64,000 bases of DNA. Source: Terramyces sp. JEL0728. Lineage: Eukaryota > Chytridiomycota > Chytridiomycetes > Rhizophydiales > Terramycetaceae. The number at the start of each line of letters is the position of its first letter. Position 1 is the stretch's first letter. A model generated the notes under the pieces. The model did not search any database and had not been told where the DNA came from. It worked only from the letters and a program-made list of their open reading frames with translations. Location of the stretch: the NCBI GenBank assembly GCA_027603945.1, contig JADIIU010000053.1, forward strand, positions 25,833 through 89,832, written 5' to 3'. The translations under genes were made by a program, and so were the position numbers. Shown piece after piece: positions 1 to 64,000 of the stretch.

Positions 1-920
1 TGGGCTTCTACCCAGTCAACGAAGCTGCCACCAACAAGGCAAAGGAAGATATCAAGCGCACCCTCTCTGCTCTCAACAAACACTTGGCTGCCAAGACCTT
101 CCTTGTCGGCGAACGTGTTACCTTGGCTGATATCGTTTTGGTCACCTCCCTCTTAAGATTCTACGAATTAGTCTTTGACCAATCCTTCTTGGCTCCATTC
201 AAGAACGTACACCGTTGGTTCACTACTTGTGTAAACCAACCGCACTTCAAATCTGTTCTTGGAGAAGTTAAATTCTGCGAAAAGATGCGTGTTGCTGACG
301 CTTCTGCTGCTCCAAAGTCTGCTGCTCCAGCTAAGGAAGCAAAGCCAGCTAAAGAAGCAAAGCCTGCCAAGGAAGCTAAACCAGCTAAAGATGCTAACGC
401 AGATTTACAACAAGCTTTGGACGCTGAAGCCGCCAAGCCAAAGGAAAAGAACCCATTAGACCTCTTACCAAAATCTTCCTTTGTCTTGGACGAATGGAAG
501 AGATTCTACTCTAACAACGACACTAGACCAACCGCCGTCAACTGGTTCTGGGACAAATACGACTCTGAAGGCTACTCTATCTACAAAGTAGACTACAAAT
601 ACAACGACGAATTGACCCTTGTATTCATGTCTTCTAATCTCATTGGTGGATTCTTCCAACGTCTCGACCACATGAGAAAGTACCTTTTCGCATCATTGCT
701 CGTTTTAGGAGAAAACAACAACAGCAAGATCTCTGGTTACTTTGTCATCCGTGGATCTGAAATTCCATTTGGAATCCAAGACACTGTTGACTACGAATCT
801 TACAACTTTGAAAAGGTCGACACCAACAACAAGGATGTCCGCGAACGTATCAATGCGGTCTTTGCTTGGGATGAAAAGATTGACGGAGTCAAGTTTGCCG
901 ACGGAAAGATCTTCAAATAA
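1..920 (+). CDS. EEF1G: Translation elongation factor eEF1B gamma (5' partial)
   Basis: Gamma subunit of the eEF1B nucleotide-exchange complex that recharges eEF1A with GTP. The window begins inside the gene; the frame is open from base 3, so the true start and the N-terminal thioredoxin-like part lie outside. What remains is the GST-C-like domain (LVGERVTLADI near the start) and the conserved C-terminal EF1G domain (NPLDLLPKSSF, GGFFQRLDHMRKY, SGYFVIRG). Between them lies a lysine/alanine hinge of about four near-perfect PAKEAK units (about 327-392), as in other eEF1Bgamma proteins. No intron is seen in this part, unlike most genes here, and codon choice is C-ending and visibly biased, fitting a highly expressed gene. 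Confidence 0.96.
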   Translation, partial: GFYPVNEAATNKAKEDIKRTLSALNKHLAAKTFLVGERVTLADIVLVTSLLRFYELVFDQSFLAPFKNVHRWFTTCVNQPHFKSVLGEVKFCEKMRVADASAAPKSAAPAKEAKPAKEAKPAKEAKPAKDANADLQQALDAEAAKPKEKNPLDLLPKSSFVLDEWKRFYSNNDTRPTAVNWFWDKYDSEGYSIYKVDYKYNDELTLVFMSSNLIGGFFQRLDHMRKYLFASLLVLGENNNSKISGYFVIRGSEIPFGIQDTVDYESYNFEKVDTNNKDVRERINAVFAWDEKIDGVKFADGKIFK

Positions 921-1057
921 ATTACTCATTTACTCCTGCATTGTAGTTTCTGTTATGGGGCGTATTTCTTGTGATGTTGGCATTGTTCTTTTTTTGATGG
1001 CTTAGCTATGCGTGTGTGACTTCAATTTAGCTATAAATGGGAGATTGAAACGAGTCC

Positions 1058-1591
1058 ATGAAAAATATGGTTTCTGAAATGCAATTCCCAATCACCGACA
1101 TCAGCGCTAAAGTAGAAATCCCAGCACCATATAGATTTCGCCCACTAATGAAATCTGACTATGAAAAATTCCTAACATTGCTATCCCAGTTAACTACGGT
1201 TGGTAATATTTCTGAAGGGCAATTCTCCAGTAATATTTACACTAATATAGCTCAATTCGACTGGCTAATTAGTCACAGCGATACCCAACGCTCTCTAGTA
1301 ATTGAAAACATCGAAACCAGTGAACTGGTAGGATGTGGCAGCATCATTGTCGAAAGAAAGTTTATACATGAATGTGGAATAGTCGGTCATATCGAGGATA
1401 TCGTCATCTGTGAATCAACAAGAGGAAAGAAGCTTGGCAAGTGTTTGATTGACCAATTGGCCCATATAGGAGAAAAGATGGGCTGCTACAAAGTTCTACT
1501 GAGCTGTGCAGAAAAAAACGTTGGGTTCTATGAGAAATGCGGTCTTGCTCGTAAAGAAGTGACGATGGTGCGATATTTCAGCAAACAGTAG
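1058..1591 (+). CDS. GNA1: Glucosamine-6-phosphate N-acetyltransferase
   Basis: GNAT-family enzyme that acetylates glucosamine-6-phosphate with acetyl-CoA on the way to UDP-GlcNAc (chitin, GPI anchors, N-glycans). The 177-residue uninterrupted reading frame contains the family's signature blocks: GHIEDIVI, the acetyl-CoA loop RGKKLGKCLIDQL, and the C-terminal EKNVGFYEKCG. Full family length. The first ATG is used here; a second in-frame ATG lies 9 bases downstream and could be the start. Intronless. The stop lies 33 bp from the stop of the convergent SPIN90-like gene. Confidence 0.95.
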   Translation: MKNMVSEMQFPITDISAKVEIPAPYRFRPLMKSDYEKFLTLLSQLTTVGNISEGQFSSNIYTNIAQFDWLISHSDTQRSLVIENIETSELVGCGSIIVERKFIHECGIVGHIEDIVICESTRGKKLGKCLIDQLAHIGEKMGCYKVLLSCAEKNVGFYEKCGLARKEVTMVRYFSKQ

Positions 1592-1624
1592 TATACCAGC
1601 CAGTAGATTCAATAAATTCTTGTT

Positions 1625-2643
1625 TTATTCTATTTGGTTCAAAATCTTTTGGGCCAACAAACTAGTTGAAGTTGGGGTCATTGGTGATGAATTGATCTTG
1701 TCCAGTTTGTCTCGCAACTGCTTTGTCAGATGCTGCTTTGATCCTGGCGATTCTACTGGTATGCAATCTATCAATAGTGGCAGTAACCGAATGAATTTTT
1801 GCCGTAGCTAAGGATTAATTCGTTTGTACATTGTGATCTTGGATCCTCATTGTTTCACGCATCGTAATGTCAAATAATACTGTGATATCGTTTGTATAAA
1901 AGAATGTTGGATCCTTGAGTGATAGCGCAATAAGCAAATCCACAATCAGCTCCTGCATGAACGCGGATTCTATCTTAGTAGTGCAGCTACCTTCTCGATT
2001 GAAAACAAATATTATCCCCAATGACAATTCCTTTCGCAAATAGCTAATACTGTCCGACACTAGGACAGCGAGCAAAACTTGAGACTGTTCCCCGCTCTTT
2101 TTTGAATACTGGCCTTGCAATACTAGCAACAATGTAATTGCAGAGTTTGTGTATTCTTCATTTTGATAGTATTGTTCATAGACCGCCTGGCATACTCTTG
2201 TGGTGTAATTCAAGTCAAATATTTCCAATTCTCTGGTTGTTAACTCGTGACACTGGAGTAGCTCTACTAACAATAGGAATGACAAATGAGATTCAAAAGG
2301 CGGCCGTATTTCCACTAGCAGCTTGAACCAATCCATATCACACAGTTTCTTGTATATATTTGGCACTGCGTGTCCCAATGAAAGCAGGATCGAGAGATGG
2401 GCAGAAACCTGGATAAATCTAGTGGTACATTTGGATACAACTCATCAGTAATCAGATTGATGTTGTCAAATATTTCAAATTCATGAATCTCCTGTATGAT
2501 TATTTGCAAGTGTGGAAGGGACACATTGCTCTTTGACACTAGATCAAGTATTTCTATAAAATCCTCTCTGGATGATTTTTCTCTGTATTGCTGTAATCCT
2601 GCCGTTAAATTACCGTACCATCCAGCAGCTCTTGTGGATCCAT
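1625..2643 (-). CDS. SPIN90/Ldb17/Dip1-family Arp2/3 activator
   Basis: Proteins of this family (human NCKIPSD/SPIN90, budding-yeast Ldb17, fission-yeast Dip1) activate Arp2/3 without a pre-existing filament and seed actin at endocytic sites. Removing mini-introns of 20, 20 and 22 nt gives one 318-residue protein made almost wholly of the helical armadillo-like domain. Key blocks are SAHLSILLSLGHAVPNIYKKL in the middle and FFYTNDITVLFDITMRE near the end, matching the family's conserved YTND...VLxD core. There is no SH3 domain, as in the yeast forms. The start ATG (2643) is 17 bp from the divergent start of the VPS60 gene; the last exon ends 33 bp from the GNA1 stop. Family call is by motif memory only. 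Confidence 0.75.
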
Positions 2644-2660
2644 TTTTTCACAACTGAAAT

Positions 2661-3396
2661 ATGAATCGCATTTTCGGGTCTTCAAAACCACAAAAACCAA
2701 AACCAACTGTCCAGGATGCCATAGTCAAAGTACCTTAATTTAATATCAGACAGATGAAAGAGCGGATGCGGTATTTGTAAAAATAAGGAAATTGGACGCA
2801 GAACTAATGCGGCACAAGGATCAAATGGCGAATATGAGAGATGGACCGGGAAAGAATGCAATTAAACAAAAAGCAGTTCGGGTATTAAAGCAAAAGAAAC
2901 TTTATGAAACGCAATTAGAGTCTCTCCAGCAACAGTCATTCAATATGGAGCAAGGTACTTGCAATTAACGCGTAGCATCCATGACTACAGAAAATCTAAA
3001 GAATACAATGACCACACTGGATGCTATGCAATTGGCAAACAAGGAGCTGAAGAAACAATACAAAAATATCAACTTGGACAAGATTGAGGTACAGTTTGCT
3101 AACAAAGAAAGCCCAAGATGAAATGGAAGATTTACTTGAACAGGCTAATGAAGTTCAAGAAGCTCTGGGCAGAACGTATGGTGTTCCGGATGACATCGAT
3201 GAGGCTGACCTTGAAGCTGGTATTTGCTTTTAATATAGAACTGGATGCGTTGGGAGACGAATTACTGTTGGAAGAAAGTGAGCCAAGTTACCTACAAGAA
3301 CCAGAATTCACAGCGCCTAATGTGCCTGGCGGGTTTGTTAGCGAATCTGCCGCAACAGGAAATCAAGAAAATAAACCAATGACCGTACCTCAATGA
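2661..3396 (+). CDS. VPS60: ESCRT-III accessory protein VPS60/CHMP5
   Basis: Snf7-family protein that works late in ESCRT-III with Vta1/LIP5 and Vps4 in multivesicular-body sorting. Four mini-introns (20, 21, 19, 19 nt) removed give 218 residues, the usual length. Visible blocks: N-terminal [10 protein letters not shown], the helical core [50 protein letters not shown], and the acidic C-terminus with [13 protein letters not shown] (the CHMP5 region that binds LIP5). Every intron falls where the conserved CHMP5 alignment would otherwise break, which makes this one of the cleanest proofs of the 19-21 nt intron rule. Start codon shares a 17-bp gap with the divergent SPIN90-like gene. Confidence 0.93.
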
Positions 3397-3435
3397 AAAT
3401 GTAAGTTAATAAACTCCAAGTTTAATTGTTTATTA

Positions 3436-4201
3436 TTAGGATAGGAATTGAGCCAACTTCCAGCGGTTATAAATAGTCTAAATTAGATTGATGGAACCTT
3501 TTGCATTTTCTTGTCTTTTGAAGTTTCTGCAAACAATATTTCTCGAACAGCAGTAGCTTGCTGGACAACTCTTTCCAAGCTACTATCCGGTTTACCACCG
3601 CAAGCGGCTAAATTAACGATGCTTACATATAATATAATTGTTGAACGATATTGCCACCGATTCTCTCTGATCTTGAGATAGGTAATGCGACATTGGTGAA
3701 GACGCTGGATCTGGATAAGCAATCAGTGCGATAATATCCTGTAATGTGTCGTTATACTTTGGATTTATTGAAGAAAATACACCCAGTTCTACTTAGTAAA
3801 CAATTACCTGTTTGGGCATACATTAGCGCTTTAGCAGCATCAGTCCTGGCGTATTCTATAAACTGCTGGCACGTTAAAATAAAGTTAATTTCGTTGGATT
3901 CCGGTGTTTTATTTCTCAATAACCCTGGAAAATTCTCGTTGCAATAAGCGACAGCTTCCTTAATCTCTCCTTTTCTAACCATTGTGGACAAAATCTTTCG
4001 TGGTTCCAACGATCTTGTTGGATCTTGCGAAGATAAATCGATATCCATTTCAGTGTTGATTAGTTGGCACGTCGATCCAAACGCTGCTGCAGTTTCTGAA
4101 AAACAAGAGTGGACCAAGTAATCGTAAATCATTTTTTGAATAATTTTTTGTTCTGGTTGTGGTTCCTGTTCATATTGCTCGATAGCTTCGTCAGATGTCA
4201 T
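3436..4201 (-). CDS. LisH-CTLH-CRA protein, RanBPM/GID1-like, no SPRY domain
   Basis: About 235 residues after removal of three mini-introns (19, 19, 20 nt). Order: LisH (IYDYLVHSCFSETAAAF), CTLH (ILSTMVRKGEIKEAVAYCNENFPGLL, then FILTCQQFIEY), and a CRA segment (DTLQDIIALIAYPDP, SPMSHYLSQDQRESVA, SSLERVVQQATAVRE). This arrangement is that of the CTLH/GID ubiquitin-ligase scaffold; the CRA part is closer to RanBP9/10 (GID1) than to GID8. The SPRY domain that precedes LisH in RanBPM is absent: the 205 bp between this start and the SMC4 stop cannot hold it. A short final exon after the third intron ends in RWKLAQFLS. Confidence 0.8.
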
Positions 4202-4406
4202 TTTTCGTTTTAGCTGAAAATTTAGTGATTGTTGCCAAATTGCGAAATGGATCCAAGAGTATCCAAACCCACTCTTACGTCCCCGAGCCCAGTTTGCAGT
4301 ATCCAAGTGCCAGAGTCTTGCAGAGCGGTAGTCCAATACAAAGACTGCTCAAAATGGATGCAAACCAAAAATTTATTAAACTGCAGCCTGTTCGACTAAT
4401 AGCGGG

Positions 4407-8382: not shown

Positions 8383-8917
8383 ATGTCGTTGTTGTATACA
8401 TCCCAAAAACAAAAGAGAAAACCAAGGCCAGAACTAACTGACGATCAAAAACAAGAAATCAAGGAGGCGTTTGAACTATTCGATACAGACAAAGACAACG
8501 CTCTCGACTACCACGAACTCAAGGTAGCTATGCGTGCCTTAGGGTTCGACGCCAAGAAGCCAGAAGTACTCAAAATCCTAAGAGATTTTGATAAGACAAA
8601 TCAAGGACTTATTCAATTTGAAGATTTCCAAAAAATCAGTACTTTTTATTAATATAGTGACTGAAAAGATTATAGATCGTGATCCTATTGAAGAGATCAG
8701 GAAAGCGTTTAAACTGTTTGATGATGATGGCACTGGAAAGATTAATTTGAGAAATTTGAGAAGAGTTGCAAAGGAAATCGGAGAGAATATGGACGATGAT
8801 GAGCTGCAAGCGATGATTGATGAGTTTGATCTTGACCAAGATGGGGAAAGTAACTTGTTTTTAATCCTAGTAAATGAGCAAGAATTTATCAACATTATGA
8901 CTGACGCTAACGACTAA
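8383..8917 (+). CDS. Centrin (CDC31-type EF-hand protein)
   Basis: Calcium-binding protein of basal bodies/centrioles. Mini-introns of 19 and 21 nt removed give 164 residues with four EF-hands. Hand 1 is [12 protein letters not shown] and hand 4 is DLDQDGEINEQE; hands 2 ([12 protein letters not shown]) and 3 ([12 protein letters not shown]) carry some changes. The N-terminus is the short basic centrin tail ([26 protein letters not shown]), and [25 protein letters not shown] is typical of centrin 1/2 rather than calmodulin. It supports a flagellated cell, together with the SAXO, IFT22, NPHP4 and TMEM138 genes in this window. Confidence 0.93.
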
Positions 8918-11991: not shown

Positions 11992-13733
11992 ATGCAATAT
12001 ACATTTCATAGCAACATCCAATCACAAGCAGAAATTTCCAGCGAAGCAAGCGAGCTTGCCAACGCGAAAGAATTCATAAAGGGTAGCTAAAGCGTAATGT
12101 AGACAAATTATTTTTCGTATGTCTGTCCAGAGCACCTCAAGACACTGACAAAATCCATTTCTTTACAGTTGATAGCACGTTTGTGTATACCAATTTTTAT
12201 GCGGACTTTGGACCGTCAAATATGGCTCATTTAGTTAGGTTTTGTTACTTTATGCAAGACAAACTCCAGGTAATTCACACTGATATTAGAATCCGCAAAC
12301 TGCAAACAAGACCCTGTGCTTGTATTCCTCGTTCGAGATCGATAGGCGAGCAAACGCGGCATTCTTGTTGACGGCTTACATGGTAAATGATAGTAATGAA
12401 GATGGTCGTACACCAAAAAACACCAGAAGAAGCGTATCAATCTTTGCTTGGAATCACTCCCCCTTTGATTCCTTATCGCGATGCTGGTTATGGCCCAGCA
12501 ACCTATCACATCACTGTATTGGATTGTTTACGAGGATTGAATAGAGCAATGCAGCTAGGACTATTTGATTTACAGTCATTTGATTTGGAAGAATATGAGT
12601 TTTATGAAAAAGTAGAAAACGGAGACTATAACTGGATTACAAATAAATTTGTTGCATTGGCTGCTCCAAAGGATGATTTACAGGAACAACAGAGCTACAC
12701 TATCAGCCGTTTTACTCAGCAAGGAAAACCTCTGTTTTCATCCTACAGAATGACGCCTTTGATCCACTGGATGCTGCAAAATAATATTCGTACTATTATC
12801 CGCCTGAATAATAAGACTTATGATAGAAGCAAATTCGTTAAAGCAGGGATTGAGCATATTGAATTATATTTCCCCGATGGATCTACACCGCCAGATGCGA
12901 TATTAAAGAAGTTCTTGGAAATTTGTGAAACCAGACCTGGTATTTTACATTTTATGTAGGCGCAATTGCAGTTCACTGCAAAGCCGGGCTGGGAAGAACA
13001 GGATCACTAATAGCAGCATATTTAATGAAGCATTATAGACTAACAGCATGTGAAATCATCTCGTTTATGAGAATAATTCGTCCTGGAAGTGTTGTCGGGC
13101 CACAACAAAACTATCTACAAGCGTAATCCAAAAGCTTAATTATAGCATTCAATCAAAACTATGGAAAATGACTCCTGCAGTAAAATTGCCTCCATATGTC
13201 TCTTGCTGGGTAGAACCGCTGCCGTTAACCAGATTTGGACAGGTGGTTATCAAACCAGCCCAATCATTGGTACAAGATCGCCCTGTGTTCCACGCAAAGA
13301 AGCGCTACGAATCATATGCTCCAGGAGACATAAAGAATTATAGAACTGCGAATGAAGTTGAAGAATACGAAAAACAAATCCAAAAAGAAAGAAGTCTAGT
13401 GTCAACTAAACAAATCGAAGAGCTATCAATCCCTGTACAACCTAGAAAGCATCTGCTTTCAGAAGAAGTAAGCAAATCTAATCATAGGAAAAGAACGGCG
13501 TCCAGCATTCATTCTTACAGCAAAATCATGTCACTGCAGAAAACAATGCAAATAGGTACCATCTGCGTTCAAAATCTGCTAATCAAGCATTCACAATACC
13601 TAATAGGCCGCGCCAGTTTGTAGGGTTTGAACCAGACTTGATTGTACAAGAAAGCCAAGAGGGATTTGGATTCATTGATCCCTTTGCAGAAATAGAGGCT
13701 GGACATTATAAGCAAAAGCGATTGGCACAATAA
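11992..13733 (+). CDS. CDC14: Dual-specificity phosphatase CDC14
   Basis: Mitotic-exit and cytokinesis phosphatase, also linked to basal bodies in ciliated cells. Six mini-introns (20, 20, 19, 20, 23, 20 nt) removed give 539 residues. N-terminal DSP-like domain: [29 protein letters not shown], then [22 protein letters not shown] and [14 protein letters not shown]. Catalytic domain: P-loop [17 protein letters not shown] (Cys and Arg present), then [13 protein letters not shown]. The C-terminal tail of about 190 residues is unlike any I know; in it a 20-nt intron can be read through without a stop, so the raw reading frame hides it. Start chosen at ATG 11992 because family members begin shortly before FIKDKL; ATG 11758 is possible. 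Confidence 0.9.
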
Positions 13734-18800: not shown

Positions 18801-21697
18801 AGGTAATTTGGGCTCATTGCAGGGATTAAGCAGCAGATTGCACTACCTTAATGCCAGTGCAAACAAGCTTACTACTCTGAAAGGTTTAGAAACAGCACCA
18901 AATATTAGAATATTGATCCTTAGCAGTTCCAAGGTCAAAGATATGGTGTCAATTAAATTCTTGAAAAATCTACTTTATTTGGATATATCGCAATCTCAAT
19001 TGTCAGAAGATATAGTGATGCAATTGACATCCTGCCATCAGCTACAATGCCTGGAAGCAGGAAATAATCATTTTAGAGTGATTCCAGATATCCCAAACCT
19101 GGCTATGAACGAATTGCATTTGACAAAGAATGTATTGCAGCAGCTGAATAGAATGTCATGGCTGTTTAACTTGCGAGTGCTGAATCTATATGACAATCAG
19201 ATATCCGACATTTCGCCTTTGGCAATGGCTCCATTCTTGAGAGAATTATACCTGGGACACAACGTTATCAAAGGTTGGACTGTATTAACGTAGATGTGAA
19301 AAACATTTATCATATTGGTATTTGTCAGAATCTGGAAGTTTTAGATTTAACCGGAAATCCAGTAATGTACGACCATGCATTCCCAGTGGCTGTTGGGATG
19401 TTATTCCCCCATATTCGGGTAATTTTTAGCTTAGTGTAGCTTTTAAACAATATGCAAATCAATTTGCATCAGCACAAAACGAAAAGGATATATACATTGA
19501 TAAACGTGTTTGAAGCAATCAAATTTTTCAATGAAGTTAAAACCCAACTTGTATACTATATTGATGATCAAAAAGAGTAAATATTGCTCAATTAGTGACA
19601 CCGCTGACATGATGAAAACCTGGAAGGAGTTTGCAGTTTCGAGGGACAAAGTAAAATAGATTAATACTAGATGATTAGGAACTATATGGGTCCATATTTT
19701 TCTCCTTATTTGAAATATCTCACTAGCAATTCGGTTGCTGCGAAATTTAACCCAATGTCAAACTTGGCTGCTCAGGAACGAAGATTGTTTTGGCTTTCTG
19801 ATGCCATAACCGACATACTAAAAGATTCAGAAATAATGCCAGTTCCAACTTCGTAACACTATTTAATTGCAGGGATGGTTCAATCATTTATTATTTGCAT
19901 CATCTGGATTTCCTGATTAATAATTATCGCGCAACCCATTTACAAGCAATATGGAGAATGAAATTACAGATGAGGAAATTTGTTTTGCTAAGAAATAGTA
20001 AAGCGATACTAACAAAAAGAAGTGTTGAAAATCCAACGGCGATTAAGAGACTACTTTGCCTGCATCGAGCCGAGAAGGATCCTCCGAAGGCTAAAGAAAG
20101 AAAAGTTTGAAGCTGATGCAGCAATAATGATCCAAAAACACTGGAAACGTACATGAAAATAACTGTAGGGTTTAGGATGCGGGGGAAATTGGAGGAAATG
20201 CGCATTCAGCACGAGAAAGACTTGGAAGAGCAAGCCATAAAACTTGTCAGGCCCGTGCCAGTTTCTGAGCAAGACCTGGAAAATGCAATGATGGATAAGG
20301 ACATTGCAGATATAAATAAGTGGCTGGAAGAAGAAGAAGACCTGAAATTTGACAAGAAGATGAAAAAGTATCTAGAGAATGAATCTCTAGTGCACTATCC
20401 AGGAATGAGGAAAAAGAAACCCCCTAAAAAAGATAGAAAAGGCTATAGAACGTCAAGCAAAGCATCGTCTTCCCACATTGTACTGGATAAAATAGTTGTT
20501 ATTAGAGATGATATCGATGCAGAGTTGGACGAAGAAAACTTTTTTGATGATGAGTACGATTCAGAAGGTAGGGGTGATACTTCAGGGTCAGAGACCGGTT
20601 CTAGCCCGCCTTCTCCCCCAACTGTTGATTTACATCACACAGTACAGCTAGCTAAAGAAAGAAATGATATAATGATCAATTTAAATCGACAGGTATTACA
20701 TTACTGATGTAGTTTAACAAATTGGTAAATACATTGCCCCCAACGGGACATCTTACAAATGACGATATCATGAAACCGCAAACTCCATTAAAAACAACAG
20801 GTAGAATTGGTGTACCGCGCCTGGGAGAAATATCCTTTCCCCAAAGTCCGTTAAAAACTGCTCCCGGTAGAACCACCGAATCACTACTAGGTGAAACCCG
20901 CCGTGGTGAATCTAGACTTGGTAAATATGGGTTCCCTAATGAAATACAATCGACAGTCGGCGATGCTAAAACTGCAGTCACACCTGAAGCATTACAAAAT
21001 AGCAACATAAGTAACCTCAAGGATCGATTTGAAAATAACGTAAATCCTAGTATATTGGACGCTACAAGTTTCGATTCAGCAAGTAGATACACTGAAGGTA
21101 TAAAGGAAAGAGATGATATTGGATGGTAAATGCATTCTAATTGTAGGTCGCAGTATGGGAGAAAACAACCTCTTATCAACGCAATGAAATCAGCTCCAGA
21201 GAAAAAGATTCAGCCAATTTCAATTGAAGAGATGCTTGAACCACAAACAGCTCCAAGAGATCACAAATTGATTTTTGAATGGGATATCCATCCAGGCAAT
21301 GTTTCCCAGAAACTTTTAGTAATTATAATTAATATCAGGCGGCAGAGAGAAAAGAATCAATGCCAAAAGAATCTCCTATTCAGTACACTGGGACAGGTGC
21401 ATTCCCGCTAAAGGGCAATTATATTAGCACCGTATTCATTTTTAACGGCAGGAACCTCAGTTTAAACCACCAGTGACATTGCTGATTAACAATTACGTTG
21501 CATCTAAAATACTGCGACCAACGATTTCAAACATTGACCCAAACACAATCCATCGTTTGGAAACTAAACCACGAACCAAAAAAGGCAATTACGATACAAT
21601 GTTGGATTTAATTCCCTCACAGATCGTTACCCCTGCCTACGGTTCATATCAGCTGCCGAAACCAGAGCCGCTACCGTCAATTAGCAAGAAACAATAA
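15861..21697 (+). CDS. Giant coiled-coil, leucine-rich-repeat and IQ-motif protein
   Basis: One gene of 21 exons; removing 20 mini-introns (19-22 nt) yields 1,809 residues with the frame preserved throughout. Order: acidic N-terminus (about 1-150), serine-rich disordered region (150-560), coiled coil (about 590-880; FKVLNAIVNKLQTELDILKDKI), an SDS22-like LRR block (about 890-1140; RLHYLNASANKLTTLKGLE, LRVLNLYDNQISDISPLA, LEVLDLTGNPV), then IQ-type helices (about 1300-1390; LKIQRRLRDYFACIEPRRILRR and AAIMIQKHWKRFRMRGK). Next come an acidic stretch and a proline-rich tail. LRR plus IQ architecture recalls LRRIQ1 and other axonemal/centriolar proteins, and calmodulin or centrin binding is likely. 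Not identifiable to an orthologue. A naive annotation would split it into about ten genes. Confidence 0.82.
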
Positions 21698-36865: not shown

Positions 36866-38455
<1,590 letters not shown>

Positions 38456-40794: not shown

Positions 40795-42718
40795 ATGGAA
40801 GATGTAAAACAGTATTTGAAAAATCAAATAGCAATGGCGATCGAATGTTTCGATTTTGATCTGGGAGAATTCTTGGCGGAAAGATTGCTCTCATTTGATC
40901 CAAATTGTCCAGATGCTAAATTTCTACTTTCAAAAGCACTATATCTTGGTGGAAATGTCCAGAGAGCAATTTCAACGTTGGATTCAGCTACAAACCACCC
41001 GCAATCCATTATACTCTATGGAAACTGTTGTTTAAAATTGAAATTGTATCAGGATGGAGAGTGTGCGCTAAGGAGATGGGTTGACTTTAATGGAAACGAG
41101 TCACCACAAAATCTAGCAACGATTTATTCATTAATTGGAAATATATGTCGGTAAATCTCGTGTAACATTTCAGACTAGTCGGAAGAGTTGAGGACTCGAA
41201 AACTGCGTTTCAGGAGTCACTCAAGTATAATCCAACATATGTTACATCATATTTGGGACTTAGCGATTTAGGGACGCCGTTGAAAATATCAGATACACTG
41301 AACTTGCAGAAAATAATGTCCAAGAGAGAGTATATTTAGCTAATTGTAGAAAGCCAGGTCTGTCCAAGGAAACTTTCTCGAAAAAGGGACACGATTTTAA
41401 CCATAGAGATCAAATGATGGGAAAGTAATCAAGCCAAATAGTAGAGAGCCTTTATCCTCTAAATTCACTGTTGAATCTCGAAAAAGAGGTCAAGTCAACA
41501 AAAATCCGGCCAAAGTGAGTTTTTACTAAATAAGAAAACTGCAGAAGCTTCTGCGAAATCGGAAAAGGAAAATTATTCAATGGATGATATGTTATTAATC
41601 CTGCAAAAAATCCTTACCGCGTACAATGCACTCTCTCTCTTTCGCTGTAGATATGCACTAGAGGTGTTACATTCACTGCCCGAAGAGCATCTGAATAGTG
41701 GATTTGTATTGGCTGTCGTAAATATTTGTTAAATTAGAAAGCAAAATGTCACTATGAGCTTCAACAATATCATCAAGTATTTTTCACTAATTTAGGCTGA
41801 CGAACTGTTTCAAATCATTAGGTAGTTTGGTTTAATGGTAGAGTAACTGACCCCTGTAGATTAAAGGATATGGACATATATGCAACATGCCTTTGGCACT
41901 TGAAAAAGAAGGTCGGACTATGTATTTTGGGAAAGGAACTAGAGGATATCGATAGAGTAGCGCCGGAAACATGGTGCGTTATTGGCAACTACTTTTCGTA
42001 ATTAGCATTAATGAAGATTATTGGCAGAGCATGACTCGGCGATTGAAGCTTGCAAGAGAGCGATACAATTGGACCCGAATTTTACCTATGCCCACACACT
42101 GTTGGGACACGAGTATCTGGCGAATGAAGATCTGGAGGCTTCCTCCAATAGTTTTAGAATCGCAATGCGGACTAATTCCAGACATTACAATGCCATGTAC
42201 AGAATGCTTAATGATAGCTATGGACTTGGATTGATTGAATTAAAGCAGGAGAAATATCTTGTCGCCGAACACTTTTTCAACATGGCACTTCAAATTACCC
42301 CAGAAAATTCGATTTTGTTGGATGTATTGGGGCAAGCGATACAGAAAGACAAGACCAGGAACGATGAAGCACTAAAACTTTATGAAAAGGCACTTGAATT
42401 GGCGCCAGAACACCGCGTCTATCTTTGGCACAAAGCGCAGCTACTGTTTGAAATGGGAGAATACGATGCAGTGAAAATGATACTGGAAAAAGAAATAGCG
42501 AATACAAAGCCCGATAGTCAAGTACTATTCATGCTGGGAAGAGTCTTTGCAAAGCTAGGTTCAAAACAGGACGCAATCAAATATATGACCCTAGCACAAG
42601 ATTTCCAGGAGCACAAATCCAGTAGCATAATTAAAGATTCGATTGGTAAGTCTCTATTTATTTAGAAAAATTGTTTTGTAAAGAAGAAAATTTGGAACCT
42701 TCAAATGAATTTCTTTAG
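40795..42718 (+). CDS. CDC27: Anaphase-promoting complex TPR subunit CDC27/APC3
   Basis: Scaffold subunit of the APC/C ubiquitin ligase that binds CDC20/CDH1 IR tails. Ten mini-introns (19-23 nt) removed give 573 residues. The N-terminal TPR/dimer region includes FDFDLGEFLAERLLSFDP; a short linker follows. The C-terminal TPR superhelix begins with TWCVIGNYFSLLAEHDSAIEACKRAI, then LDPNFTYAHTLLGHEYLANEDLE, YGLGLIELKQEKYLVAEHFF and LGRVFAKLGSKQDAIKYM, the invariant CDC27 blocks. The stretch 41.16-42.0 kb contains seven mini-introns, so no frame is open there. One 21-nt intron (42197-42217) can be read through without a stop. An upstream ATG at 40744 would add 17 residues. Confidence 0.93.
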
Positions 42719-54368: not shown

Positions 54369-55402
54369 CTATTTATTCAATACTTTCTTGACAGCTTCCA
54401 AAACTTGATCATGGATTTTCCCATTGGTCGCAATTATGCCTCTGTTGTTTTTTAGAGTTCTTCCTTGAGAGAAATCCAATTCCTTACCATCAATATCTGT
54501 AACTTTACCGCCGCCTTCGCTAACCATCAAAGTACCACCAGCATCTATGTTTAAAAGTAGTTACGATCCCAAATCTTTTCCTGATAGTCTGCTCTTGTTG
54601 GTATCCTGAGATAAATTCCTGCATCCCCCCTTGCAATAACAGCATACTTGCATTGAGAGTCCATTCTGATTGGTTTATTCTTGATATTGAGAATATCTGC
54701 GATTTTAACAGTATCTGACTGGTTAGAATGTGCTGCTTCGACCGATTCACAGAAACTGGTTTCGCTTGGTGATGTAGCGTCCACTACTTTGACTCTAGTT
54801 TCTGTTCTATCTTCAAATGAGCGCTAAATCAATATTTAAAGTACTTCAAATACACCTTGATGTTTAACTGCTACCATCAACGAGCCTCTGTTTGAAGCAG
54901 GATCATTGATATTCCTTGGTAAGTTTGGACATCCTTGAATTGCTACTTTAACTTCCCCATTAACAATCAGCGATAGGCAGACTGCAAATTGCTCTCCTCG
55001 CAAGAATCCTTTGGTTCCATCAATCGGATCCAGTGTCCAGAATCTACCTTGAGGACCTCCCTTGTAATTTCCAAGGTCGATCGCATCCAAAATTTGTTTG
55101 GTCGATAATGGTTTGTCCACAACTGAATTTGTCAATTCAACCACTTTGTCGCATAAAGTCTGGTTTTCCCTTAGGTCTTTAGAATCCTCTTCTCCTACTA
55201 TTGGATCGTGTGGGAATGCTTCGTGCAGAATTGAATTTACAACTGCTTGTGCTCCAAAATCTGCAACAGTGACTGGCGAAGCATCTTCCTTTACTAGTGT
55301 TTGGGATTTTACCAATTTGTTAAATACAGCCTGACATAACTTGCTGGCTTTAATAACAGCGTCAATCCCGATTGCTCGTTCTCCAGCATACAATTTCAAC
55401 AT
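54369..55402 (-). CDS. 3'(2'),5'-bisphosphate nucleotidase (HAL2/MET22 family)
   Basis: Lithium-sensitive, Mg-dependent phosphatase that turns PAP into AMP in sulfate assimilation. Two introns (21 and 20 nt) removed give 330 residues. Metal-site motifs: SPVTVADFGAQA, IVGEEDS, LDPIDGTKGFLRGEQFA, and WDHAGGTLMVSEGGGKVTD. LDPIDGTKGF is typical of HAL2/BPNT rather than inositol monophosphatase. No signal sequence, so cytosolic. Confidence 0.93.
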
Positions 55403-57041: not shown

Positions 57042-58381
57042 TCAGCGAATTAGAATGGGAGTGATTCTCTTTTTCCCATCCGCAATATTTGGCTTTGGCG
57101 CTTCCATCTTTGGGATTGGTTCAACTGGCTGCTCGACTGGAGTAAATACCTTTTCCTCGATAATAGCTTTTCCAAGTTCACCATCTGCAAATTCAATCAT
57201 TGAACAAAACCCATCAATTGACGAAATGATCAAATTTTGTCCATCATGGGACCAAGAGATATCAGTTAAGGATGCGTAGTGGAATTTGCTAAAGTAAGCA
57301 ATTGGTGCCATGTCTTCCGTGTCATAAACAACGACAGAATCATGTGTAGCGAGTGCGTAAATATATCTATAATCCGTATTTGCAAAAGACAAATCTTTTG
57401 TTCGCAGCCTGTACTTTACCGGGCTGAATTTCGCTGCAATGACAGCTTTTTGGTGTTGAGATAGGTGAGCTGCAGGGCTAAATCAACAATCAATTACTGT
57501 GTAAAAGGTCTCACAAAGACATACGAAGTCAAATCCTGGCCATGAACACCGGCAGTAGAAATCAGCAGCTGGCCATCAGGCGAAAACGACAATCTTCTAA
57601 AGAAAGAATTCAGATCTTCATCCATGTACATTCTGGGTTTCTCTGCCTACGTCAATTAAAATTACGAGATTGACTTTGGTGTGCTTTGCTGTCAGTTTCG
57701 GGATCGTCTTTTGTTTCTCTTCATATTTGTAAATGTGCAGCGCTCTTGCTGTTAGGTAATAATCACCTATCACTACTTTGCGAAGCAATGAACTGGAATA
57801 GCGGATCCCAAGCTACACCTTGCACAAAGTGCTGGTGTTCTGTCATAACATGAACGCATTTTTCTACCATTAATCAAGAGTACGTTCTTTGATATCAAAT
57901 ACTCTAATAGACGAATCAATTCCGGCAGAGGCAATCATCGTCCCGTTAGGAGACCAAGCAAGGTCATATCTTGTTAATCAAATCTTACAAATCGGATGTT
58001 GTCCCACGTAGTATAATTGCGGTTCTCCAGTGCTCTAGATTGTCAAATTCATCGTCGTCTATAGATTGCTGTTTCTTGTCAGTCTGTTCCCATAATAAAA
58101 TTGAGCCATCTAGCTTAACTGACAACTACCATCTCCACCACTCGCAATGTACTGTCCATTTGGCGACCATCGAACACAATTGACAGCGGCAGAGTGCCTT
58201 GATAATGTGGATAAATATTCTACAGTTCCATCCTTCAGACTCCAAATTCTTACATTATGATCCCCACCGCATGTTGCAAATCTATTCCGAATTGGATCGA
58301 AATCAACAGAAAATATCGGTAATTTGTCATGCCATCTATATTAAACTTGTAATACATGATTTGTAAAGTTTTTGCCCTCAT
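57042..58381 (-). CDS. CAC2: Chromatin assembly factor 1 subunit p60/CAC2
   Basis: WD40 subunit of CAF-1, which deposits H3-H4 behind replication forks. A 20-nt intron after MRAKTLQII restores the start ([16 protein letters not shown], compare IAWHNKEPVYSLDFQ). Then [45 protein letters not shown], and the C-terminal [57 protein letters not shown], which is the CHAF1B/CAC2 hallmark. Several further mini-introns between 57.4 and 58.1 kb were seen but not all placed. RTT109, which makes CAF-1's substrate mark, is in the same window. Confidence 0.9.
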
Positions 58382-58415: not shown

Positions 58416-58694
58416 ATGCCTGTTGATCTGGAAGCGAGAAACAAATTGGAGCTGTGTCTTTTAAATTGGAAGCAGCTGATAATAGCAGAGAGCTTGATTT
58501 CCAAAATATTGCAGAAGTTTTGCCTGAATTCCACCCATTAACCTTTCCCACTCTCAATGATACATTCGCTGACGGTTATTCTTTAATATCAAAAGTGGTT
58601 AGAGATGCCTAAGCTCGCGTGGAATATTTCAATGCATTCTGTCAATATTGAAGCACAAGTAAAAATTGAGGCTGCAACTAAAAGACTCGCTTGA
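58416..58694 (+). CDS. Small unidentified protein, two mini-introns
   Basis: Removing introns of 20 nt (gtcttttaaattggaagcag) and 19 nt (gtggttagagatgcctaag) gives 79 residues: MPVDLEARNKLELSDNSREL..., then FQNIAEVLPEFHPLTFPTLNDTFADGYSLISK and a helical end HSVNIEAQVKIEAATKRLA. I do not recognise it. An upstream ATG at 58356, with an 18-nt intron, would add residues but would overlap the CAC2 start on the other strand. Confidence 0.4.
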
Positions 58695-58762
58695 ATTTAA
58701 TATATCTGCAATTGCGGTTTATCTTTTAGGCGAGATGTGATAGACGCGCCTTTGACTTTAGA

Positions 58763-59413
58763 ATGGCAAACAAACTCGTGGTATTCATGGTCGGCCCTCA
58801 AAAGACAGGAAAGACGGCAATCACAAACTATTTGGCGGAAATGTCTGAAAGTTTAGAGTCGACAGAGTATCGTCCAACTCAAGGAGTCAGGTACTCAAAA
58901 AATAATATCAGAATCCTGGAAATTGAAAAGAAGTTGGTTGCAGATCCAAAGAAAGGACAAAAATGGAGAGAGGCAAATGTAGTTGGTAAGCGAGTCCTAA
59001 TGTAGTCGAATTATGGGATTGTTCAGGAGAAATCAAGTAGAAATTGCTAATGATAGTCTCGTGGATTGCTGGAGAGCATTTTCAAACAAGATTCACGGAG
59101 CCGTATTCGTTGTTTCGGCAGATGGGAGACACGACAAGGAACTGGACCCTTGGTAATCTGGGTTAATAATAGGCAGGAAGCGATCGGATTACCAAGACCA
59201 AACCAATACACGGTATTCGCTCATAAACAAGCCCAATCAGGAGCTAGAGCAAAGGTAAAACCAAGCAACAAAGTCCTCAGCAAGTCCCCTGTGGTGTACA
59301 CCAATTTGGACCAAGATCCAGAGTCGATAAAAAACGAATTTGATTCCTTCTTGGCCAATATTTATTCTGTATTCTTGGAAAACAAGGAGCGAGAAGAGAA
59401 CGCAATTGTCTAA
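58763..59413 (+). CDS. IFT22: Intraflagellar transport GTPase-like protein IFT22/RABL5
   Basis: IFT-B subunit of the Rab-like family. Three 20-nt introns removed give 196 residues. P-loop FMVGPQKTGKTAITNYL, then YRPTQGVRI-type switch (STEYRPTQGVRYSKNN), VVELWDCSGE (compare FELWDCGGD), VDCWRAFSNKIHGAVFVVSADG, and VYTNLDQDPESIKNEFDSFL near the end (compare VHSNLEDDPEEIRMEFIKYL). As in other IFT22 proteins the later nucleotide-binding motifs are weak. Good evidence for working intraflagellar transport. Confidence 0.92.
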
Positions 59414-59437
59414 TATAATTTTTTGCTTTTTTATCAG

Positions 59438-60787
59438 ATGTTTTCAATTCTGTACTTGCATGGCAATTCCTCTCATGAATGCGGATATTGCCATTCAGAA
59501 GCTGAAACTTCAAAAAGCTTTGGTGTTCTAGGATTCAATTTATCTCCCGGAAATTACCAGGTGATGATTGACAAGGGATGGTACAGGTGATATAATGGTA
59601 GGAGGCGGTCAGGGAATTATGTCTACAAACCAAATATTGGATCGACATGCTGCCCACAGTATTCAATCAAACTGAATTGTCTAGAATTTGAACCTACCAA
59701 GAGTCAGTCCAAGGTACTGAAAAAAGTTCAAAAGTATTTGCTGACTGGAAATTTGAAGCAAAGCGATAGATCGGCAGAGAAACCAGATACAAAGAATGTA
59801 TCCACGGATTTTATTCAACCAAAGCTTAATGTGCCTGTTCAACCAATAGTAGATGCTCTGGATCAAACACCATCTTTCGAAAATCCCAATGTCCAAGAGC
59901 AGAAGCAATCAAAGCCAATATTGAGTAGGAAATCGGGAATAGAAAGTCTGGTGGAAACAATTGAAAACAATCCCAGAAACAAGATTAAATTTCAAGTACT
60001 GACGGATTAACCAGGTAAAATTAGAACCTGCAGAGTATACGAAAGAATCGCACGAATTGTACATAAAGTATCAAATGGCCATCCATGGGGATAAATTAGA
60101 GGAATTGACTGCTGAAAAGTACTCTAATTTCCTGGTTGAATCTCCATTCCAAAAATCTACCTATTTCAAGTTCAAAGATAAAGTTTATGCGTGTGGATTG
60201 TATCATCAAAAGTACTATGTTGATGGGGCATTAATCGCGATTGGGGTCATAGATATTCTACCCTGCTGTGTGTCTTCGGTGTATTTTCTATATGATCCTT
60301 ACTATTCAAGCCTATCTCTTGGAACATTTTCGGCCTTTAAAGAAATCTCAACAACTCTGGAGTTATACCGGGAGAATCCTTCAATCCATCACTATTACTT
60401 GGGTAAATATTGCTTATTTTAGGTTATTATATCCACAGCTGTCCCAAAATGAGATATAAAGCACAGTACAAGCCGTCACAGCTACTTTGTCCACTTACAT
60501 TTGATTGGGTGAGAGCAGATGTAGCAATTCCGTTATTGGATCAAATGAAAAACACAGTACTTACGCACCAGGAGGGTGGGAATCTAACCGCAAAGTCCAT
60601 TAACGGATTTTCAAAACCCCAAATCAATCCCCAACTGCTAACACAAGCCAAAATACTCTTCAACAAAAAGATTGAGCCAATTGACAAATTTTTATCAAAC
60701 AAAATGTTTATAATGAATCTCAAGGAATTTATGGAATACTTGGGAGTAGAGATTCTACAAACTGTATTGATCGTAGCGCCAGAATAA
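59438..60787 (+). CDS. ATE1: Arginyl-tRNA--protein transferase ATE1
   Basis: Adds arginine to N-terminal Asp/Glu/oxidised Cys as an N-degron. Introns of 18, 19 and 20 nt removed give 430 residues. N-terminal cysteine motif [16 protein letters not shown] and [22 protein letters not shown] is restored only by the 18-nt intron. C-terminal catalytic part: [76 protein letters not shown]. The extra insert of about 90 residues (59.75-60.0 kb) is hydrophilic. Starts 24 bp after the IFT22 stop. Confidence 0.94.
59587..59604 (+). other. 18-nt mini-intron in ATE1
   Basis: Sequence gtgatataatggtaggag. Removal joins DKGWYR to RSGNYVYKP in phase, matching the RGWRRSGxYxYKP block of ATE1. A 15-nt variant ending at gtag also keeps frame and would add one Arg. 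The shortest intron I found. Confidence 0.65.
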
Positions 60788-60829
60788 TTTCGCGGCATCT
60801 TCAAAAATTACAATGGCAGAATAATTTTA

Positions 60830-62581
60830 TTAAAACAATATTTCCTGTTTCTAGATTAGCATAATGTACTTTTAAACACTCCATTGAGCAATATCTATAG
60901 ATATTCTTGTCAAAAGATTGCAACCCAGCTAGACTCTTTCCACATGTTCCGCATTGGTTTTGATTGACTCGCATTCTTGCCTCAGCAGCTAAAGCACTGG
61001 ATTAGTAAAAAGTACCGTTTCTCTCTATCCAAACGCTGCCTTTGTTCTGGTGACATGCCAATTGACTGTTTTTCTGTCGCAGAGAGTTTTACCAACGTCA
61101 CTTTCTTTGTTGGTTTCGATTCAACTACTGTTTCCACTTTAGGTTCAACTTCTTCCTTTTTCTTTTTCTTCAATTCTCTTTCCTTCTTTCTCCTTTCTCG
61201 TTCCTTTTCTCTCTGTTTTTCTTCCATTTCTTCAGTCAACGGCCCTGGTACATTCGCTAGTTTGTAGTCCCATTGATCAGGGAAATTGTGCATGTGTCTT
61301 CTATAAACATCTCGCGCTTCTTTTGACGAACACAGGTCATATGGCCGTTTACCCAATCTTGCTATGGTCGGATCTGCACCATTCTCTAGCAAATATTTGA
61401 TTATTAATGGCTGTGACTGCTCCGAAGCATAATGTAGTAGGGTGTAACCAAACTGCACAGGAAAGGTGGTGGTAATTGATTGCCTGTCTAAAATTGAAAT
61501 CAAATATTCCAATCTTCCTTTCTTGACCGCTTCCAGCCGATTCTCCAATAATTCTGGAATCTTAATCTTGTCTTGTTCTAGAATTTGTAAATGGGTTTGC
61601 ACTTTTTCCACAAGCTCTTTTTCCTTTTTAGTCTTGATTTGTTGTTCTTTGATTTCAACATAATTCGCAGTGAATAACAAATCAAACGCTTTTAGTAATT
61701 CCTGTAATGTTGGCCGATTAGTGATAAATGGGAAAGATCGTACTTTTGCAGGGTCGATGATGTTCTCATCAAACAAAATAACACTCCTACTTTGAGCTGG
61801 GTATTTGACAAACACGTATTTAGATCGATTAATCATTTCTTTCCAGTCTTTAAGGAGCTGTTGAATCTCTTCCCTGAGAACTTGCTCGTTATATCTTCTA
61901 ATTTGCGCTCCAGCAGAATTTGCCTTTCCTTTAGAACTATCATTTCCTGACTGCGCTCCTCCTTGTTTTCTTCTTGTAGTGTATCTATGGAATGTCTTGT
62001 GGGCTAGCTGTTGCTTATCTGAATCAATTATCATTGCACTAAAGTGACCCGAAGCCATCATCAGTAGAGTAAAAGTATTCTTTTGCTGCAACTCCATTAA
62101 ACTCGCCTTCCATTCCGCTGGGTCTTTGGATAGCACTTGTTTGTAAACTAAGAGATTTTTGTTTTGGTCTTTGATTTTGAAATCGGCAAACGGGCTCCCT
62201 TGTTTTGCTGGCTCTGGTTCATCTATTATTAGACTGTATATACCTAGTGGTTAATTGGCTTGGTACCTAGGTTAGCAATATTCGGTACCTAGAATTAGAA
62301 TTCAAACTACCATCAGAGGACTCTTCATCAATTGAACTGATATCAGACTTGTCATCGAATTCGTCATGTGTCAACGGCTTCAGCTGCTTTATTTTCCGCT
62401 TTAAATTATACAAGTGCAAATCGCTTTTGTAATGTGATTTGGTGGTGGAAATTAAACATGTTGTACATGGAATTCCTCCTTCTTCTACCTTGATTTCCTC
62501 TTCCTCCTCAACGACTTTCTGTTTATATTCAATGTTATCCAGCAATGTTTTTGGGATTTCGCTCACTCTAAATTTTTCCAT
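60830..62581 (-). CDS. VMS1: VMS1/ANKZF1 ribosome-quality-control tRNA endonuclease
   Basis: Releases nascent chains from stalled 60S subunits by cutting tRNA. 552 residues after introns of 55, 19 and 19 nt. N-terminal zinc finger (CTTCLISTTKSHYKSDLHLYN), the VLRF1 catalytic domain with GHFSAMIID, AHKTFHRYTTRRKQGGAQSGND (the conserved HKTxxRYTxRxKQGGxQ loop), ankyrin-type LLHYASEQSQPLIIKYLLENGADP, a lysine-rich VIM-like helix and a C-terminal zinc-binding CGTCGKSLAGLQSFDKNIYRYCSMEC, seen only after splicing. Start is 13 bp from the divergent RPAP3 start. Confidence 0.92.
62234..62288 (-). other. 55-nt intron made of tandem mini-intron-like modules
   Basis: The VMS1 frame requires removal of 55 nt. 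On the minus strand it reads as a 22-nt unit (gtaccg...gctaacctag), then a 23-nt unit (gtacca...attaaccactag), then gtatatacag. Both large units alone have the complete mini-intron grammar and start with the same gtacc. This looks like a duplicated intron spliced as one, or stepwise. Confidence 0.6.
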
Positions 62582-62594
62582 TTGATTTGAAAAA

Positions 62595-63934
62595 ATGGAG
62601 ACAGCATTGCAAATTAAACGTAACGCTGAAGAACAACAATCGGCAATCAAGGATTTGCTCAAATGGGAAGACGAAGTTAAAGTCAAAGATAAAAAGGCTG
62701 TGGGAGAGAAAGTTTATCATGTTCCAATACGAACTACAGTTGCCAATACCACAGTCAAAAATGACAGGATTTCTTCCTTGGACTATAGGAAATGGGATTC
62801 CTTTAATGTAGACAAGGAGCTGGAAAATGTGGATTACGAAACAAGCAAAGTAAGTGCTCAGATCTATCCTAGCGGCGCTCGCTGCGAAACCTGAACAGAT
62901 TAATAATAGGAACAAGTAAAAATCAAAGAAAAGGTTATCAAGAATAACGAAGATGCCTTGGTGGAAAAGGAGAAGGGAAATTTATACTTTAAAAAACAAA
63001 AGTTCCAAAAGGCAATCATTTGCTACACAAAATCAATAGAGTTGAACATGGACATTATTCCTCTAGTCAACAGGGCACTCTGCTATTTGAAAATTCAGGA
63101 TTACCAGAATGCAGAACAGGACTGCGATAAGGTGCTTGAAATAGATGTCAAAAATATCAAAGCACTCCATCGCAGAGGACTAGCGAGAAAGAATAGAAAG
63201 AAATATTTGGAAGCAAAGAGGGATTTTGAAGATTGCTTGATCCTGGAGCCTACCAATTCCACAATCAAAAAAGATCTGCAAGAATTGGAAAATATCATCA
63301 GTATTTTTAACGGAAAGACTACGAGAAAGAGGATTGAGATTGAAGAAATTAACAAACCAATTGCTAGAGCAGCAGAAAATGACAGGAACGGGGTGGCTGT
63401 TAATGAACCTGTTTTGCTACCCAAAGTAGAAATAGTGGAAGCAAACCCAACAGAGTCTTTTATTGAAACAATTGTACCAGCTGAAGAACCACAAGTTAAA
63501 CCGGCTGAAAGAGTGAAAAAAGTTGAAATTGCAGAGGAAAAAGTAGAACCCAAGGAGGTTTCAAAAAAGTTACCAGAAATGAGTAAAGTTAAGCAGGAAA
63601 AGAATTCTATGGCCCAGCCGGAAATCAAGGTTGATGCTACCAAATTGGAAAAGCCAAAAACCCTGTTTGAATTTGAGCAGAATTGGAAGAATCTGGATCG
63701 CGAATCGCAATATCTATATTTAAAAGTGCTTTTCTATTAACATAGACCCTCAGCTGCGATTTATCCCTCTTCAAGACATCTTTTGACCAACCATTGCTCG
63801 TAAATATATTGGAGATTATTCAACAGCATTGCCAAAAAGAAGAAAGCCTCTTGCTCTTGACAAGTCTTTCGAAACTTCCAAGATTCTCCATGGTCTACAT
63901 GTTTCTCAAGGATAAGACTCGTAATTTTTCCTAA
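62595..63934 (+). CDS. RPAP3: RPAP3/TAH1-like R2TP co-chaperone with TPR and RPAP3-C domain
   Basis: Recruits HSP90/HSP70 to the RUVBL1/2-PIH1D1 complex that assembles RNA polymerase II, snoRNPs, PIKKs and axonemal dyneins. 419 residues after introns of 60 and 20 nt. TPR domain: EKEKGNLYFKKQKFQKAIICYTKSIELN, NRALCYLKIQDYQNAEQDCDKVLEI, ALHRRGLARKNRKKYLEAKRDF. A charged linker follows, then the RPAP3 C-terminal domain: TLFEFEQNWKNLDRESQYLYLK, DQPLLVNILEII, KLPRFSMVYMFL. Ends at TAA 63934 unless one more mini-intron (gtaatttttcctaacatag, 63921-63939) is used, in which case the gene runs off the window end. Confidence 0.9.
62850..62909 (+). other. 60-nt intron in RPAP3
   Basis: From gtaagtgctc to ttaataatag, removed in phase to join VDYETSK to EQVKIKEKV before the TPR domain. 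It ends with the same TTAAT-x4-AG element as the mini-introns. A shorter 23-nt alternative (ending at ctag) leads to a frame that does not continue. One of only three introns over 25 nt that I found. Confidence 0.6.
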
Positions 63935-64000
63935 CATAGTTGTAAATGGGAGGCATGAAAAAAGTGGACAGTTGGAAGTGGACTCCCGCCACAAACCAGC

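Follow-up and report, generated by a model that had tools for sequence, protein, structure and literature searches.

Spliceosomal introns of very small size have been described in several eukaryotic lineages. According to PMC10245619 and PMC2483917, those of chlorarachniophyte nucleomorphs measure 18-21 nucleotides (nt); those of heterotrich ciliates measure 15-16 nt (PMC10245619; for Stentor, PMC9505925) and those of mikrocytids 16-17 nt, with 224 introns in 179 genes (PMC10245619). In dicyemids, a length of 26.2 ± 1.9 nt (n = 16) was reported (PMC2222250). For fungi, the published figures that we found are a mean of 63 base pairs in Cryptococcus (PMC8476143) and medians of 50 in Peltaster and 45 in Pneumocystis (PMC7181583); Malassezia is credited in PMC7426719 with "very short introns", a wording that comes there with no number. 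In the human B complex, helices of 17 nt and 14 nt lie about 21 nt apart, with a calculated need of about 52 nt from donor to branch (PMC6692369), and human short introns depend on SMU1-RED (PMC6692369) or on SPF45 (PMC8363638). Here we describe a stretch of 64,000 nt from the chytrid Terramyces sp. JEL0728, called the window below, whose genes carry many candidate introns of about 20 nt.

The assembly comprises 15.0 megabases in 231 contigs, and the window is formed by the final 64,000 bases of an 89,832-base contig; the fungus is placed in Chytridiomycota, Rhizophydiales, Terramycetaceae. The segments are very probably U2-type spliceosomal introns of its nucleus that have been reduced to a length of 19-23 nt, with a mode of 20. 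The original prediction made on this DNA, an ordinary fungal-lineage nucleus with spliceosomal introns of about 20 nt, was supported by the chytrid best matches and by the presence of the length peak in the window and in 20 other contigs. The best matches of three window proteins (BPNT1/HAL2-like, CAF1B, and CDC27) were those of Terramyces itself. The BPNT1/HAL2-like gene matched HDV01_005931 at 98%, followed by Globomyces, Entophlyctis, and other chytrids, and for CAF1B and CDC27 the next matches were proteins of Boothiomyces.

The length peak was visible by motif scan alone. Both strands were searched, length by length, for GTA ... YTAAY N1-4 HAG, and the window gave 25, 35, and 15 matches at 19, 20, and 21 nt (75 in sum) versus 28 across the 16 lengths from 24 to 39 nt. 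Eight alternative first triplets gave 2 to 14 matches each, summed over 19-21 nt, and related branch motifs also peaked there, more weakly, with 18, 16, and 15 matches in three variants and 5 in a fourth. The same scan was applied to 200 kilobases (kb), made up of 10 kb from every one of the 20 longest contigs, where 48, 49, and 32 matches were obtained at 19, 20, and 21 nt (129 in sum) and 1-11 per length elsewhere.

A gene finder with flat length cost was run on 290 kb. It allowed the removal of any GT..AG segment of 10-120 nt, the range it covers, and was scored on coding signal with no preference for motif or length; its coding model had gone through one round of retraining on GT-AG output, and this tilts the result mildly towards GT-AG. 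With these settings, 107 of 232 GT-AG introns fell at 18-23 nt, and the decoy boundary pairs gave 23 of 223 (GA-AG), 17 of 222 (TG-GA), 12 of 201 (CT-AC), 17 of 219 (GT-GA), 10 of 202 (GC-AG), and 17 of 232 (AT-AC). Outside 18-23 nt, GT-AG never exceeded the highest of the six decoys in any length class between 10 and 119 nt; thus, no second class of introns was detected up to about 120 nt. An earlier flat run on the window alone was weaker, with 22 of 41 at 18-23 nt and decoys at 1-9 of 32-44.

We also used a splice model after training, with a length prior in favour of 16-26 nt. It called 529 introns in 164 genes (233 kb coding), and 484 of them measured 18-23 nt, a density of about 2.1 per kb coding. 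An intron was considered impossible to read through when its retention shifts the frame or adds a stop, and 437 of the 484 were of this kind (370 shift the frame and 67 carry a stop). For the window genes the model predicted 176 introns, 160 of them not readable through in frame; among the latter, 151 measured 19-23 nt (33, 73, 20, 19, and 6 at 19, 20, 21, 22, and 23 nt). The previous estimate by eye of about 120 introns of 18-23 nt with mode 20 was therefore right, if rather low, and the three introns quoted with it were all located in the window, on the + strand, with 20 nt each (2730-2749, 12083-12102, and 19853-19872). Introns of about 20 nt were present on all 21 contigs sampled for length. 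Genomes with ultrashort introns are recognized by a narrow length, 15-21 nt, in nearly all introns; the same narrowness is found here at 19-23 nt, slightly longer.

The splice signals were counted in the 437 nonreadable introns of 18-23 nt. GTA stands at the start of 379 of them, and the donor information resides chiefly in this triplet, later positions contributing at most 0.4 bit. A YTRAY motif was found near the 3′ end in 294, as in U2-type introns, to which the GT..AG ends also correspond, with decoy boundary pairs giving no peak. In 261 of these 294 the A of the motif lies 13-14 nt past the first G, and in 267 it lies 5-6 nt ahead of the last G. The branch site being readable, the sequence itself gives the places of donor and branch in most introns. 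T is enriched in the central part of the intron (41% versus 30% in the sampled genome). U12-type introns have a long donor consensus, RTATCCTT; such a donor was not found here, the comparison being made on the donor only. Of what had been proposed for these signals, the GTA donor and the YTAAY-like branch near the AG were borne out; a very short donor-to-branch spacing also held, with 13-14 nt measured between the first G and the branch A in place of about 12.

Calls of the trained finder were checked singly in six window genes. Out of 45, 29 were supported (all of 19-23 nt), 9 stayed undecided, and 1 was misplaced (19 nt, its place being taken by another intron of 19 nt). The introns considered gene by gene in the window are the following.

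2730..2749, + strand: intron of 20 nt, VPS60-like gene (Snf7 family), example of the original prediction; predicted, the spliced protein matches Snf7
2955..2975, + strand: intron of 21 nt, VPS60-like gene; predicted
3089..3107, + strand: intron of 19 nt, VPS60-like gene; predicted
3220..3238, + strand: intron of 19 nt, VPS60-like gene; predicted
12083..12102, + strand: intron of 20 nt, CDC14, example of the original prediction; gap-free junction against human CDC14A
12270..12289, + strand: intron of 20 nt, CDC14; gap-free junction against human CDC14A
12383..12401, + strand: intron of 19 nt, CDC14, superseding the finder's 12408-12426; spliced reading compared with AYAVIYLKKTPEEAYRALL of human CDC14A
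12940..12959, + strand: intron of 20 nt, CDC14; gap-free junction against human CDC14A
13123..13145, + strand: intron of 23 nt, CDC14; gap-free junction against human CDC14A
19853..19872, + strand: intron of 20 nt, LRR/IQ gene, example of the original prediction; predicted
38089..38110, - strand: intron of 22 nt, NDR kinase (CBK1-like); gap-free junction against yeast CBK1
37986..38004, - strand: intron of 19 nt, NDR kinase; gap-free junction against yeast CBK1
37747..37766, - strand: intron of 20 nt, NDR kinase; gap-free junction against yeast CBK1
37681..37700, - strand: intron of 20 nt, NDR kinase; gap-free junction against yeast CBK1
37498..37517, - strand: intron of 20 nt, NDR kinase; gap-free junction against yeast CBK1
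37392..37411, - strand: intron of 20 nt, NDR kinase; gap-free junction against yeast CBK1
37173..37192, - strand: intron of 20 nt, NDR kinase; gap-free junction against yeast CBK1
41151..41173, + strand: intron of 23 nt, CDC27; exact in public model P0241
41330..41349, + strand: intron of 20 nt, CDC27; exact in P0241
41425..41444, + strand: intron of 20 nt, CDC27; exact in P0241
41515..41534, + strand: intron of 20 nt, CDC27; exact in P0241
41718..41737, + strand: intron of 20 nt, CDC27; argued from a 39-nt exon, with a 20-nt homologue seemingly retained in the Boothiomyces model
41777..41795, + strand: intron of 19 nt, CDC27; argued from the same 39-nt exon
41822..41841, + strand: intron of 20 nt, CDC27; exact in P0241, with a 21-nt Boothiomyces homologue by back-translation
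41998..42016, + strand: intron of 19 nt, CDC27; exact in P0241
42197..42217, + strand: intron of 21 nt, CDC27, left in frame by the public model; its 7 residues are missing from 3 aligned relatives
42646..42665, + strand: intron of 20 nt, CDC27, inside which the public model stops; splicing gives EKLFCKEEN, and Boothiomyces P0242 has EKLFSKEEN
54824..54844, - strand: intron of 21 nt, BPNT1/HAL2-like gene; exact in public model P0001
54545..54564, - strand: intron of 20 nt, BPNT1/HAL2-like gene; exact in P0001
58336..58355, - strand: intron of 20 nt, CAF1B; exact in public model P0121
58110..58129, - strand: intron of 20 nt, CAF1B; exact in P0121
57970..57988, - strand: intron of 19 nt, CAF1B; exact in P0121
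57864..57883, - strand: intron of 20 nt, CAF1B; exact in P0121
57745..57766, - strand: intron of 22 nt, CAF1B (28 nt in the public model); removal of 22 nt retains SSDRALH as in Boothiomyces P0122
57478..57497, - strand: intron of 20 nt, CAF1B; exact in P0121

Aligned with yeast CBK1, the NDR kinase gave gap-free junctions in 7 of 7 cases. For CDC14 against human CDC14A, 4 of 6 junctions were gap-free, the fifth was better at 12383-12401, and the sixth lay beyond the query. The public proteins P0001, P0121, and P0241 were spelled exactly from the window with at least 16 introns, 13 of which measured 19-23 nt; the remaining three measured 28, 28, and 78 nt, and the second 28-nt case is undecided. 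The 78-nt one is found in CDC27, where the public model takes out 41718-41795 as a single intron and swallows the 39-nt exon 41738-41776 (KAKCHYELQQYHQ), which is similar to KAHFELHQYQQ of Kappamyces. In CAF1B, the 28-nt public version of the intron at 57745..57766 drops SSD, kept in Boothiomyces. The public models P0121, P0241, and P0242 seemingly retain, merge, or lengthen tiny introns, with loss of short exons. In SMC4, two of the nine intron calls (both of 21 nt and in frame) were false, as their removal leaves holes of 7 residues; the other seven, in an alignment that covers the protein in part, are undecided.

Comparisons between copies were also possible. The loci L001 (contig C199) and L002 (contig C111) are 98.9% identical over 3,106 bases, as expected of two copies of a single locus, either unmerged alleles or recent duplicates. 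Their exons (2,199 bases) differ by 14 substitutions, all silent, with 0 indels; their eight introns (163 bases) differ by 1 substitution and two 1-base indels, and the 744 bases between genes, end overhang excluded, by 5 substitutions and 3 indels. Three tandem paralogues at L023 (4996-5675, 6689-7353, and 8468-9131, - strand; a velvet domain was matched in the one tested) have all 3 intron positions and phases in common, while the introns vary in sequence and, between 20 and 24 nt, in length. An MFAP1 pair at two contig ends, L043 (C110) and L044 (C82), is 99.2% identical over 1,035 bases, with 8 substitutions and no gap, which again agrees with unmerged alleles or recent duplicates; it was uninformative on introns. 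In the tandem pair L016 (600-3242 and 3515-6088, + strand) the central stretch is nearly identical and the flanks have diverged, which looks like gene conversion.

The sister genus was considered by means of its public CDC27 (P0242, Boothiomyces sp. JEL0866), part of which is garbled at the place of the tiny introns of Terramyces. By back-translation, a 20-nt GT..AG piece is possible at the Terramyces position, followed by 39 nt whose true frame matches 10 of 13 Terramyces residues (20,000 random draws gave 8 at most); another shared site allows a piece of 21 nt. No retained piece was seen at the corresponding sites of Boothiomyces P0122 and P0243. The garbled CDC27 with its back-translated pieces suggests that Boothiomyces, of the same family, probably shares such introns.

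We searched the assembly for the splicing machinery in six frames, only the top candidates being scored. The U2 small nuclear RNA (snRNA) was found with 140 bits and its branch-pairing GUAGUA intact, together with SF1 and the large subunit of U2AF, so that these U2-type components coexist in the same genome. U2AF large scored 252 bits with its introns left in, and splicing out four of 19-20 nt raised the score to 334 bits (curated cut-off 310). MFAP1 was also found (215 and 212 bits), and SPF45 was represented by a single UHM-like match of 75 residues. The RED_N profile had no candidate in the assembly, and the SMU1 search gave generic WD40 stretches only, none over residues 1-179 (84 of 151 candidates scored).

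Taking into account these components and general splicing knowledge, an intron-definition spliceosome can be proposed. U1 and then U6 would read the GUA donor through a short duplex, holding GUA and a few more bases, and SF1 and then U2, with its intact pairing stretch, would read and hold YUAAY; the AG would lie too near the branch to fit a polypyrimidine tract. The two long intron helices of the human B complex cannot fit in 13-14 nt, so the pairings of U1/U6 and U2 would be shortened and partly successive.

Several observations weigh against the interpretation of the segments as spliceosomal introns. The case for splicing is statistical and evolutionary and comes from DNA alone. Neither U1 snRNA (41 of 233 candidates scored) nor U6 snRNA (48 of 1,328) was recognised; U2, U6, SF1/BBP, and U2AF had been put forward for inspection, and among them U2, SF1, and U2AF large were present and U6 was the one not recognised. 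A strict YTRAY near the end is lacking in 143 of the 437 introns, 47 of the 484 calls of 18-23 nt (each 21 nt long) are in doubt as possible coding sequence, and 6 of the 45 checked calls were refuted (21, 21, 21, 24, 30, and 69 nt). The finder's 21-nt calls in L016 were false, the tandem pair there being nearly intronless, and the exon and intron limits used for L001 and L002 were set by a model that assumes tiny introns. As for U6, two core patterns gave 0 and 6 matches (7 in the reversed control) and 0 of 6 loci matched Rfam. Two Rfam matches below threshold (27 bits, cut-off 44) were rejected as U6, since they sit inside two near-identical copies of a coding gene and overlap one of its tiny introns; by eye this gene is VMP1-like, with a VTT domain match below cut-off. 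Because the searches were six-frame, scored top candidates only, and had prokaryotes as control genomes (with no control for RED, SMU1, and U1), the nonrecognition of U1, U6, RED, and SMU1 is a lead only and no proof of absence.

It could be considered that the segments are kept in the mRNA, or removed by a nonspliceosomal route such as translational bypass or DNA elimination. The donor-to-branch distance of 13-14 nt, far under the human minimum given in PMC6692369, would agree with this, as would the fact that removal is deduced from genomic DNA; however, GT-AG ends combined with a YTRAY at a constant spacing are signals of the spliceosome, the genome has U2, SF1, and U2AF large, and the assembled DNA still contains the segments. 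We regard this explanation as very unlikely. Assembly errors, or indels in decaying genes, were named beforehand as a scenario that would overturn the prediction. The assembly is a draft of 231 contigs with certain loci present twice, but errors would not share GTA..YTRAY..AG, a single size class, and positions conserved among paralogues; the checked proteins are well conserved, the peak recurs in 20 further contigs, and the copy comparisons do not fit either, which makes this scenario highly improbable. Just as small is the chance that the gene finder itself creates the peak and masks ordinary introns of 50-100 nt: the prior of the trained finder does favour 16-26 nt and false calls occur, yet the flat-length run gives the peak with no excess elsewhere, the motif scan alone shows it, and so do public models made by others. 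Finally, introns of such size are known from nucleomorphs and ciliates (PMC10245619), and one of these might have been present in the culture; the three searched proteins match chytrids best instead (Terramyces, then Globomyces or Boothiomyces), and a nonfungal origin has a probability that we consider negligible.

Besides single introns, abutting units were detected in the window.

62223..62310, - strand: four abutting intron-like units (22+22+23+21 nt) with zero exon between them, VMS1/ANKZF1-like gene; predicted, stops in all three frames

This stack has 88 nt in total and its 23-nt unit scores poorly; the gene has bVLRF1 and ankyrin matches. A second case, of 20 + 23 nt, is located in L009 from about 7087 (+ strand). 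Zero-length exons accounted for 4 of 393 consecutive intron pairs in the models, all from these two sites, and a model-free scan of 589 strong candidates returned the L009 pair only. The abutting units are possibly stacked introns spliced successively; a simpler alternative is a single intron of 88 nt at 62223-62310 or of 43 nt in L009. A bolder proposal, which seems to us unlikely, is that the spliceosome of Terramycetaceae cannot handle introns longer than about 24 nt, that grown introns survive only as abutting stacks removed sequentially (zero-length exons, e.g., 62223-62310), and that the B complex is activated at 13-14 nt from donor to branch without SMU1 and RED.

Among the other genes of the window, on the + strand, an EF-hand gene at 8383-8917 is centrin-like by eye, and a Ras-like gene from 58763 is IFT22-like by eye; both would fit a flagellate fungus.

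In the literature searched, outside which lie most subscription journals, there was no report of a fungus with introns as short as about 20 nt. Ultrashort introns were already known from nucleomorphs, ciliates, mikrocytids, and dicyemids, and the fungal case is new as far as the searches reached. The claim of a new extreme thus stands within fungi, to the same extent, and does not stand overall: by the published figures introns are shorter in heterotrichs (15-16 nt) and in mikrocytids (16-17 nt), and about equal in nucleomorphs (18-21 nt). Terramyces belongs to an order with other sequenced members and has 13-14 nt between donor and branch in most introns with a readable branch site kept, so a fungus becomes available for testing spliceosome assembly on minimal substrates, and a comparison of relatives can date the shrinkage. 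In practice, gene models here, and probably in Boothiomyces too, drop or garble short exons.

With nucleomorphs, Terramyces shares the intron size, the high number of introns, and a donor reduced to GT(A); nucleomorphs are relict endosymbiont nuclei, described in PMC2483917 as having no branch-point signature, a pattern given there also for Paramecium and dicyemids, whereas Terramyces has YTRAY at a fixed place. Stentor resembles it in the GUA donor, the fixed position of the branch A, and the free-living host; according to PMC9505925 its introns are shorter, their branch A falls mostly on the 10th nucleotide and lacks a strong consensus, and a distance of 9 nt between the first G and this A can suffice, whereas in Terramyces it is mostly nucleotide 14 or 15, within YTRAY. 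The same source lists SMU1 among the proteins found in Stentor, and none was recognised in Terramyces. Mikrocytids also have many uniform introns with conserved motifs (PMC10245619), in a parasite with a reduced genome; in Terramyces about 2 introns were called for each kb of coding sequence. Dicyemids, the nearest opisthokont case found, have short uniform introns too (PMC2222250), although they are animals with longer introns and, by PMC2483917, without a branch signature. Other fungi, of the same kingdom, use GT-AG as well, in introns reported to have two to three times this length. The same geometric problem of a short donor-to-branch distance is posed by the short introns of humans, where about 50 nt are needed, compared with the 13-14 nt of Terramyces.

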